IMG/VR virus record: IMGVR_UViG_3300025168_000898
Coordinates: 1-20,230 of that record
Strand: one strand, 5' to 3'
DNA from: a virus
Length of the DNA: 20,230 nucleotides
The notes under the pieces are model-generated. The model saw nothing but the letters and a program-made list of their open reading frames with translations, had not been told where the DNA came from and ran no database searches. The number at the start of each line of letters is the position of its first letter. The stretch's first letter is position 1. This document shows, in pieces, positions 12,190 to 18,634 of this stretch. The translations under genes and the position numbers were made by a program.

Positions 12190-12546
12190 ATGACAAAGCC
12201 AATCTATGCAAGTGAAGAACACAAAATTATAATTGAATCCTATATAATAATGTGCCAAGAGTTTGCAAAAGATGTGAGTTCAAAAAATAGATACTATAAT
12301 TACTTAGATGTAGTAGAAACTATCGTGGAATATTCAAATAATTATGGTGCTGGAACTAGAGAAAATAATTGGTACGACTGGCTAATGATAATACCAATTA
12401 ATATGTCAGTCGTTACAAATGGGTTTTTTGCAGGATTAGAAACGAATAAAAACAGAGCAGTTATACGAGCATATAAAACAGTCCTGAATGAAATGGTAAG
12501 CGAAGTGGTAGATAAGATAGATAACCTAGAAGAACCAAGTGAATAA
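12190..12546 (+). CDS. Unknown protein before the sigma-like gene
   Basis: A 118-residue acidic, helical protein: EEHKIIIESYIIMCQEFAKD, RYYNYLDVVETIVEYSNNYGAGTRENNWYDWLMIIP (about 37-72), then a helix TNKNRAVIRAYKTVLNEMVSEVVDKIDNL. No signal peptide; the hydrophobic MIIPINMSVVTNGFFAGL stretch (about 68-85) is interrupted and probably not a membrane helix. No family recognised. It follows a TAACTTTG box almost directly and overlaps the GTG start of the sigma-like gene by eight bases. Confidence 0.5.
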   Translation: MTKPIYASEEHKIIIESYIIMCQEFAKDVSSKNRYYNYLDVVETIVEYSNNYGAGTRENNWYDWLMIIPINMSVVTNGFFAGLETNKNRAVIRAYKTVLNEMVSEVVDKIDNLEEPSE

Positions 12547-13105
12547 GATCTATCGTGAAATATCAAAGCTAAGTGATAAGTTCAGGAAAATGTGCTACAG
12601 GTTTACAAAGAACAAAGCAGATATTGACAATGCTGTGCAAGAACTATTTATTTATTTTTTAGAAAGACCAGAATTAGTCAGGAAAATTTATGATAAAGAT
12701 GGTGCAGAAGGAATAACAAAATATGGTTCAGTAGTTTTAAGAAGAGCTTTAACAAGTGAAAGAAGCCCTTTCTTTTATCAGTATAAAAAATATTACACTT
12801 ACCTAGATAAGTTTTCAAGCGATACAACTTATGATATAACTGAAACAGGAGAGGTAAGAAACAAAAAGCATATCTATAATATACCTGAAGAAGTAGTAGA
12901 GAATATAGGGTTTAAAAAGCTAGACAAGATTGACTTAGTTTTAAATGACTTATACTGGTACGATAGAAAAATATTCCAACTTTATTACTACGAGGGGAAC
13001 ACACTAGATACACTCGCAAAGAAAACAGGAATAAGTCGCAACAGTCTTTTCACTACAATAGATAAAGTAAGAACAATACTTAAAAAAGAATTAAGTGAAA
13101 AATAG
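12539..13105 (+). CDS. Sigma-70-like transcription regulator
   Basis: A 188-residue protein starting at a GTG within the previous gene. The N-terminal part resembles sigma region 2: CYRFTKNKADIDNAVQELFIYFLERPELVRKI (about 19-50) followed by KYGSVVLRRAL (61-71). The C-terminal part is a region 4-like helix-turn-helix: DRKIFQLYYYEGNTLDTLAKKTGISRNSLFTTIDKVRTILKK (142-183). Two such blocks separated by a 60-residue charged linker are the layout of small ECF-like sigma factors. Lying at the end of the replication genes, it is a good candidate for the switch to middle or late genes through host RNA polymerase. An alternative is a phage HTH activator without core binding. Confidence 0.6.
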   Translation: MNKIYREISKLSDKFRKMCYRFTKNKADIDNAVQELFIYFLERPELVRKIYDKDGAEGITKYGSVVLRRALTSERSPFFYQYKKYYTYLDKFSSDTTYDITETGEVRNKKHIYNIPEEVVENIGFKKLDKIDLVLNDLYWYDRKIFQLYYYEGNTLDTLAKKTGISRNSLFTTIDKVRTILKKELSEK

Positions 13106-14217: not shown

Positions 14218-14443
14218 CTACTATGAAACTATGACAAAAGAAATACCTGAATACTATAAAGGAAAGAACGGATATATGGCTAAAGACGTAGTGTCTAATT
14301 TTGACCTAAGCTATAATATCGGAACGGCTGTTACTTACTTGCTAAGATCAAAGAACAAGCACGAGGACGGAGGGCTGGAAGATATTAGAAAGGCTATACA
14401 TCATTTACACTTTGAACTAGATGTCTTAACTTCTAAGAAATGA
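14201..14443 (+). CDS. DUF3310-like protein
   Basis: An 80-residue protein whose centre resembles DUF3310: DVVSNFDLSYNIGTAVTYLLRSKNKHEDGGLEDIRKAIHHLHFEL (about 29-73), i.e. the 'F..GNaikYl.R...K.g..eDl.KA..yl..el' pattern. DUF3310 is found in small phage proteins and in T7 gene 1.7 product, which affects nucleotide kinase activity; the activity of this short form is unknown. The NIG in place of GNA is a small departure. Overlaps neighbours on both sides. Confidence 0.65.
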   Translation: MPIPTNYYETMTKEIPEYYKGKNGYMAKDVVSNFDLSYNIGTAVTYLLRSKNKHEDGGLEDIRKAIHHLHFELDVLTSKK

Positions 14444-14694
14444 CTTTATATAAATGCAAGTGTGGAAAGACTAAAGACCTATCAGTAGCTACAATAGTTT
14501 ACATAGATGGGGAGTGGGAAACTAAAGAGGCTTTGTGCAAGTGTGGAAAGTATATGGATAGCAAACCACTTGAAGGAATGCCTAGTCAAATCAGAACCGA
14601 AGAATCACTAAGTAAAAAAAAAAGAGGTGATAAGCTATGGGATGGAGCTAAAGAAAAGCTGGTAGGAGATAGGGGAATAAATGAGGATTACTAA
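14440..14694 (+). CDS. Zinc-ribbon-like protein
   Basis: An 84-residue protein with CKCGK (5-9) and CKCGKYMD (about 33-40) about 28 residues apart, the two halves of a zinc ribbon. The rest is polar and basic, with KKKRGDKLWDG near the end. Small zinc-ribbon proteins of phages often bind nucleic acid or host enzymes, but no role can be assigned. It starts in an ATGA overlap with the DUF3310 gene and ends this gene block. Confidence 0.55.
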   Translation: MTLYKCKCGKTKDLSVATIVYIDGEWETKEALCKCGKYMDSKPLEGMPSQIRTEESLSKKKRGDKLWDGAKEKLVGDRGINEDY

Positions 14695-17702: not shown

Positions 17703-17759
17703 AAAAGGAGCTACTTAAAGTTTTTAGGTTTATCCTACTGACTATAAGCAACTCCTTTT
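17703..17759 (+). terminator. Long imperfect hairpin after terL
   Basis: AAAAGGAGCTACTT (17703-17716) pairs with AAGCAACTCCTTTT (17746-17759) in a 14-bp stem with two mismatches. Inside the loop, AGT (17719) pairs with ACT (17743) and TAGG (17725-17728) with CCTA (17734-17737). The 3' arm ends in TTTT, so it may end the terminase transcript, but its size and inner stem are unusual for a plain terminator. Confidence 0.5.
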
Positions 17760-17855
17760 AACAAGAAAGAATATGAAGAACGCAGCAAATATACACTAAT
17801 AAAACAAACAGTAAACTAAAAACTAACTATTTCTTTAATATACACAGACACTACT
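17760..17855. other. Non-coding gap before the tail genes
   Basis: About 95 A-rich bases between the terL hairpin and the tail chaperone start. I see only an eight-codon frame (17773) and no TAnnTTTG box. A promoter for the tail genes may be of a phage-specific type if the sigma-like protein directs it. Confidence 0.4.
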
Positions 17856-18500
17856 ATGAAAGTAAAAATTAAAAAAGAAGGGAAGGAAAAGACTTATAGC
17901 ACAATCAACTCTTGGGAAGATGTAACTCTGGAAACTTGGATAGCTTTAACTGATATATCACAAGGGAGCAATGCAAAAGAGGCTGAAGAAACAATAGCTT
18001 TATTAACAGATATTCCTAGAAAGTTAGTTAAGGAATTATCTTTAAGAGATGTTACTACCATACTAAGTAAGATGGGAGAGGTACAGGGAGAGAAGGAAAC
18101 AATATTAAAAAAGGTTATTGAAATAGATGGAGTTGAATACGGAATGCATCCTGATCTTTCAGAAATTACCCTTGGTGAGTATGCAGATATTGAGACTTTA
18201 ATAAAAGAAGGTGTTGAAAAGAACTTACCTGAATTAGTGGCTATATTGTTTAGACCTATTATAGAGAGAGGAGAAAGTGAGGATGTATATACTATAGAAG
18301 CCTATGATGGTAATATTAAAATAAGGGCGGAGGTAATGGGGAAGATGTCAGCAAGTCAAGTACAAAGTGTGCTGGTTTTTTTTTACGCTTTAGGGACGGT
18401 ATTGTTAGAGATCACGCAATTATTTTTAACGGAACAGAGGCAGGAAACGAAAATATTACAGACGGAGACTTTGCAAGTAGATGGTCTTGGTTCGGAGTAA
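17856..18500 (+). CDS. Tail assembly chaperone, unshifted (0-frame) product
   Basis: The 0-frame gives 214 residues: INSWEDVTLETWIALTDI (about 17-34), KLVKELSLRDVTTILSKM (56-73), IEIDGVEYGMHPDLSEITLGEYADIETLI (88-116) and ELVAILFRPIIERG (125-138). This fits tail assembly chaperones of phages, which bind the tape-measure protein and guide tail-tube growth. At codons for VFF (174-176) there is a run of nine T. After it, the 0-frame continues for only 38 residues (YALGTVLLEITQLFLTEQRQ and on), rich in ACG codons that are rare in the neighbouring genes, while a conserved-looking sequence is found in the -1 frame. Both short and extended products are expected, as with lambda G and GT. Confidence 0.65.
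   Translation: MKVKIKKEGKEKTYSTINSWEDVTLETWIALTDISQGSNAKEAEETIALLTDIPRKLVKELSLRDVTTILSKMGEVQGEKETILKKVIEIDGVEYGMHPDLSEITLGEYADIETLIKEGVEKNLPELVAILFRPIIERGESEDVYTIEAYDGNIKIRAEVMGKMSASQVQSVLVFFYALGTVLLEITQLFLTEQRQETKILQTETLQVDGLGSE
18377..18383 (+). promoter_or_regulatory. -1 frameshift site T TTT TTT
   Basis: The run of nine T (18376-18384) contains the slippery heptamer T_TTT_TTT in the 0-frame (codons GTT TTT TTT TAC). After a -1 slip the next codon is TTA and the frame stays open for 83 residues. This is the X_XXY_YYZ form used for tail chaperone frameshifts. Confidence 0.7.
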
Positions 18501-18634
18501 TGCATAGATTGTGTAACGAAAGTATAGTAAATTTAGATGCAGTAACTAAGCTGAATTTATTAGAGTGCTTAACTTGGTTAAGTTATGAAACAGATTTAAA
18601 TTTAAGTAAAACAGTAAATAGAGATGATAGATAA
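18383..18634 (+). CDS. Tail assembly chaperone, C-terminal extension in the -1 frame
   Basis: Open frame without its own start at the T run, read by slipping back one base on T TTT TTT. It adds 83 residues: LRFRDGIVRDHAIIFNGTEAG first, then DGDFASRWSWFGVMHRLCN, IVNLDAVTKLNLLECLTWLSYETD and a polar end. The 'W.WF.v...l.n..i...d.vt.l....cl..LsYe.d' pattern is typical of phage tail chaperone C-termini. Codon use is like the neighbours. The shifted product would have 259 residues. An ATG at 18500 (TAATG with the 0-frame stop) could also allow a separate 44-residue start. Confidence 0.72.
   Translation, partial: LRFRDGIVRDHAIIFNGTEAGNENITDGDFASRWSWFGVMHRLCNESIVNLDAVTKLNLLECLTWLSYETDLNLSKTVNRDDR

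Follow-up and report, generated by a model that had tools for sequence, protein, structure and literature searches.

Results

A chaperone-like gene spans two overlapping reading frames

The window analyzed here, a 20,230-nucleotide stretch of DNA from a marine Bacteroidota virus, contains a gene on its plus strand (17856-18634) that spans two overlapping frames. The 0-frame ORF (17856..18500, plus strand) encodes 214 aa, 38 of which follow the slip site, and corresponds to the G-like short form of a putative tail assembly chaperone. The slip site is a run of nine T (18376..18384, plus strand) with the codons GTT TTT TTT TAC, and within it lies the in-frame heptamer T_TTT_TTT (18377..18383, plus strand), the candidate site for ribosomal slippage. 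From here the -1 frame extends over 83 aa (18383..18634, plus strand) as a T-like C-terminal part, and joining it to the 0 frame yields a fusion of 259 aa. The overlap (18384..18500, plus strand) is read in both frames, as the 38-codon 0-frame tail and as part of the -1 extension. The open -1 frame is limited upstream by a stop codon at 18317-18319, and the window sequence holds no ATG, GTG or TTG in this frame upstream of 18500, so the shift into the -1 frame has to fall within 18320-18500. By this reading, the two frames can be joined only through a -1 shift at the T9 run.

No other run of eight or more T occurs within the whole window. The longest homopolymer of the window is a run of ten A's (14614-14623) inside the ORF at 14440-14694, possibly a second slip site or mere chance. 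A -1 frame that is open for at least 38 codons before and at least 40 codons after the ORF stop was found in 11 of 266 ORFs from 16 sources, and nine of these 11 are the chaperone-like gene described here; in this gene, an open -1 frame across the stop occurs more than chance would give.

The 5' neighbor of the chaperone-like gene is the terminase large subunit, with no recognizable major tail protein in that place. Long relatives share the order terL, chaperone-like gene, a 180-aa gene and one or two more genes, followed by genes of 470, 900 and 280 aa and a tape-measure-like gene, such that about five genes separate the chaperone-like gene from the tape-measure-like gene. Directly upstream of the chaperone-like gene is a promoter-like element (17813..17842, plus strand; consensus AAACTAAA..AACAA..WTTTCTATTATATA), whose function is putative. 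Nearly all relatives whose gene start is in view have it at this position; it is present in at most one copy per source (eleven scanned) and is lacking in the Nonlabens phage P12024S. The element often lies very close to the ATG, and the chaperone mRNA could therefore be leaderless. A protein resembling Sigma-70 region 4 (Pfam E 2.4e-4, below the cut-off) is encoded elsewhere in the window (12539-13105) and could be a candidate reader of this element; gp33 of P12024S is annotated with Sigma-70 region 2. An inverted repeat between terL and the chaperone gene (AAAAGGAG...CTCCTTTT, window 17703-17759), similar to repeats in some relatives, is perhaps a terminator. There was no Rfam match anywhere in the window.

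The T run and the -1 extension are conserved among relatives

Relatives were collected from IMG/VR (80 + 77), GTDB contigs (three), and the phages collection (P12024S/L). The resulting 163 aligned copies include some that are near-identical, and a non-redundant subset below 88% identity (n = 49) was used where stated. Three relatives (L086, L087 and L088) come from MAG contigs assigned to Euryarchaeota and Pseudooceanicola; these are probably misbinned phage contigs. The preliminary description of this DNA had placed a -1 frame transition at the nine T's of a chaperone-like gene and had called for homologues to be aligned across the run and both frames; this alignment bore the transition out. 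The run consists of nine T in 155 of the 163 copies and of ten in the other eight, with none shorter, and the -1 extension is kept in every copy. The aligned relatives reach down to about 25% identity, represented by gp38/gp39 of the Nonlabens phages P12024S/L; the fused gp38/gp39 of P12024S has about 25% identity to the window protein. The extension follows the pattern LxFRxR ... FAxKWGWFGVMYRL ... LTWLSYETDLN, which is found in P12024S too.

All relatives that carry the T run also carry the in-frame heptamer. At the junction, eight copies read CTT TTT TTT TTC, and in three (L015, L036 and L161) a G follows the run and the preceding codon is TTT, with the run still at least nine long. Two more distant relatives differ further: L167 has ten T's (CAA TTT TTT TTT TCA), while L165 lacks the run and instead reads GTA AAT TTT ACA, which contains the classical heptamer A_AAT_TTT. 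Behind this heptamer the -1 frame is open for 84 codons, and the heptamer aligns at the same residue as the T9 junction.

A pattern search of IMG/VR with CARAGTGCRYTRG held fixed upstream matched at least 120 viral contig stretches with T9 and none with T7, T8 or in-frame T10. In this arrangement, T10 would give one continuous frame. By these counts, the unfused state is held by selection, and neither sequencing error nor switching between fused and unfused states accounts for the run. With the run conserved in well over a hundred viral relatives, the slip at T9 is, as judged from this conservation, a working part of the gene and not an error.

The downstream part of the 0 frame is also conserved. 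In the alignment of relatives, pN/pS in the overlap is 0.56, alike in the 0 frame and the -1 frame, as compared to 0.33 upstream, and the 0-frame tail is 25 or 39 codons long in most relatives. The tail had previously been regarded as an idle out-of-frame reading, a view that finds no support given its conserved end points and the value of 0.56 in each frame. The 0-frame tail thus appears to be under constraint too, and not junk, with the caveat that constraint may spill over from one frame into the other.

Unbroken homologues align through the junction

A BFVD search with the predicted 0-frame fold led to Flavobacterium phage 6H. Among its relatives, a single frame of 259-301 codons encodes the protein in FPSV-F7, 2A, laban6-1, Ingeline, Leef and a Microcystis phage; one-frame homologues occur in Duneviridae and Helgolandviridae phages, belong to phrog_25418, and are distant from the family with the slip site. 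A profile of the transframe protein aligned with the unbroken proteins over columns 4-239 of 259, straight through the junction (hhalign probability 97.5, E 5.4e-12). The junction residues are LFF or LYF and then A, G or E in four of five aligned unbroken proteins, and mostly VFF or LFF and then L in the slip family. Because the alignment continues through the junction, the fusion represents a real protein type. Homologues in one frame without a slippery run had been named beforehand as an observation that would speak against a frameshift; such homologues do exist, but given their distance and an alignment that continues through the junction, they support the fusion. Phages with the unbroken homologue seem to produce the long form alone, and their reading frames show that two products need not be universal in this protein family.

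The homologue in Flavobacterium phage 6H itself (L168, 10352-10927, minus strand) is broken near a T6 run. It was considered as a further frameshift case (AGN89393) and rejected, as its close relatives are unbroken, including the counterparts in FPSV-F7 and 2A. The break is either a mutation or a sequencing error.

The gene is probably a tail assembly chaperone

A Pfam search with this gene gave no match. The 0-frame part matches phrog_32199, whose function is unnamed (E 3.4e-9), with weaker hits to phrog_28731 and to phrog_166 (tail protein); gp39, the -1 part in P12024S, belongs to phrog_38404, again of unnamed function. A PDB sequence search gave no meaningful match with either half. AlphaFold2 predicts a fold for the 0-frame part with a pLDDT of 80, and for the -1 part alone with low confidence (pLDDT 55). 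While a Foldseek search of the predicted 0-frame fold against the PDB yielded nothing significant, a second look (VIA) ranked the HK97 tail assembly chaperone 2ob9 first, with a Z of 4.8, which is low on the scale of that tool, over 75 residues at 3.5 Å; the next row had a Z of 2.9. This predicted-fold match to the HK97 protein is suggestive only. Two BFVD matches (E 7.5e-3 and 0.12) carry the name tail assembly chaperone. The gene is therefore probably a tail chaperone by virtue of its architecture, its position and a weak structural match, rather than through a Pfam or PHROG name.

Features of the slip site bearing on RNA polymerase and ribosome

The junction has the hallmarks of two kinds of slippage. 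The in-frame T_TTT_TTT of the window and its relatives fits the X_XXY_YYZ form of a -1 ribosomal frameshift site, and the 9 or 10 T at every one of the 163 junctions match the roughly nine A/T associated with transcriptional slippage, a threshold (PMC5009743 and PMC6260861) that applies to the E. coli polymerase. E. coli RNA polymerase slips efficiently on nine A or T (PMC5009743), and slippage from seven T on, with a bias to poly(T), has been described (PMC6260861). In E. coli, U_UUU_UUU is less shift-prone than A_AAA_AAG and shifts weakly (PMC5009743).

The run is never shorter than nine in any local arrangement, although the heptamer requires only seven, which counts toward the polymerase. 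The remaining ORFs of these phages contain T_TTT_TTT in frame 38 times as a run of seven and three times as a run of eight. No T9 was found in these other ORFs, where about 1.6 runs of nine or more would be expected by chance, so this absence has little power; the two such runs counted in the ORF survey are the P12024S and L167 copies of the present gene. A runs of at least nine are depleted in other ORFs, with 13 observed against about 40 expected.

Among the 49 non-redundant sequences, no signal of pseudoknot-free RNA structure was detected within 120 bases downstream (mean z -0.11 to -0.25) or 80 bases upstream (mean z -0.06 to 0.58) of the site, and such structure was rejected as a stimulator. 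The upstream column consensus of these sequences likewise contains no conserved Shine-Dalgarno-like purine-rich stretch. Elements of both sorts often accompany -1 ribosomal frameshift sites but are not essential to them.

Discussion

Starting from the slip run, the -1 extension, the constraint on both frames and the unbroken homologues across the junction, all of which are seen at the sequence level, we infer a chaperone function, a ratio of two products and a slipping agent. The gene would encode a lambda G/GT-like tail assembly chaperone, with the 214-aa, G-like 0-frame protein as the main product. A minority would slip -1 at the nine T's and gain the 83-aa C-terminal domain, giving a GT-like protein of 259 aa. 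The slip itself may occur by RNA polymerase slippage on T9, which would add one U to some of the mRNAs. Leaving the slipping agent aside, we consider a programmed two-product frame transition in this chaperone-like protein very likely.

The identity of the slipping agent is more finely balanced. We lean slightly toward RNA polymerase, at about even odds, over ribosomal -1 slippage on U_UUU_UUU. The same two-product chaperone could arise by the ribosome only, through lambda-type tandem -1 slippage of two tRNA-Phe, and this comes close to an even chance as well. It accounts for the in-frame heptamer in every relative with the T run, and the ribosome is the agent in the chaperone frameshifts that PMC5009743 describes. 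L165 points the same way: its A_AAT_TTT aligns with the T9 junction and is a sequence on which the polymerase is unlikely to slip. A requirement for V/L ahead of the run and for L behind it could moreover preserve the first and ninth T, and the run-length argument for the polymerase is weaker for that. Against the ribosome acting alone, however, the run stays at nine or more where seven would be enough, even in the three copies with a shifted register, and the phages tolerate 38 in-frame T7 heptamers in other ORFs. Neither structure downstream of the site (mean z about -0.1 to -0.25) nor a conserved upstream purine-rich stretch is seen, and the U_UUU_UUU heptamer shifts less than A_AAA_AAG in E. 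coli (PMC5009743). The frameshift originally claimed for this chaperone stands as a transition at T9. A lambda-like ribosomal mechanism is one candidate for it; the run length fits polymerase slippage at least equally. Taken as a whole, the proposal that polymerase slippage at T9 sets the tail chaperone ratio in a large marine Bacteroidota phage group, with a distant relative using a ribosomal heptamer in the same place, falls just short of an even chance.

Three other explanations depart further from this proposal. That the frameshifted protein is another tail or neck protein, and not the tail chaperone, is unlikely; while terminase adjacency, the lack of a family name and the weak structural match leave room for it, the HK97 chaperone is the best PDB match in the second look, and both the two-product architecture and the tape-measure-like gene downstream favor a chaperone. 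Much less probable is a pair of separate genes, as gp38 and gp39 of P12024S are annotated, with the downstream protein made from ATG 18500 by translational coupling. Such coupling would fit the TAATG at the 0-frame stop of the window and the start of P12024S gp39 on the last base of gp38, but most of the first 80 relatives stop the 0 frame earlier, at a TAG with no adjacent ATG, and reinitiation at TAATG was rejected because that sequence is not conserved. The -1 frame is also protein-conserved from the T run to that downstream ATG, a stretch without a start codon in the window, and the unbroken homologues run across the junction. Although homopolymers are error-prone and hypermutable, we give almost no credence to phase variation or sequencing error, in which the true or alternate state would be a single frame with ten T's: in-frame T10 never occurs in this arrangement, as opposed to at least 120 cases of T9, and the isolates P12024S and P12024L agree on the run.

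As in lambda G/GT, one gene would yield, at the level of sequence, a short form and a -1 fused long form by a slip before the first frame ends, and a tape-measure-like gene lies downstream. Here, in contrast, the slip site consists solely of T (nine or ten), the gene comes directly after the terminase and several genes before the tape measure, there is no detectable common sequence family, and the agent is proposed whereas the lambda slip is -1 ribosomal. Nonlabens P12024S/P12024L gp38 + gp39 (phrog_32199 + phrog_38404) share the homologous gene, the T9, the -1 extension and the post-terminase place, but are annotated as two hypothetical proteins and are about 25% identical. The Duneviridae and Helgolandviridae homologues (FPSV-F7, laban6-1, Ingeline, Leef) align with nearly the whole fusion through the junction, but in a single continuous frame without a long T run. 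A nine-base homopolymer slip site is also known from dnaX of Thermus thermophilus, where polymerase slips on nine T/A (PMC5009743). Homologous dnaX genes use different slip sites, that of E. coli being the ribosomal A_AAA_AAG (PMC5009743), and the present family apparently does so with T9 and A_AAT_TTT. Unlike the present gene, dnaX has another function, and its slippage has been measured. We found no literature on transcriptional slippage for a phage tail chaperone, on phages that fix the dosage of this protein through their mRNA, or on programmed frameshifting in flavobacterial phages, in searches that covered subscription journals thinly and thus give weak evidence of novelty.

These observations would add a widespread Bacteroidota phage group, one in which recoding has been little studied, to the phages with the G/GT chaperone design, and the T9 slip site permits a clean test of ribosome versus RNA polymerase. 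They also correct the annotation of P12024S gp38 + gp39 and of phrog_32199 + phrog_38404, each pair of which would make up a single protein. Should the slip be transcriptional, the dosage of the tail chaperone would be fixed at the mRNA level.
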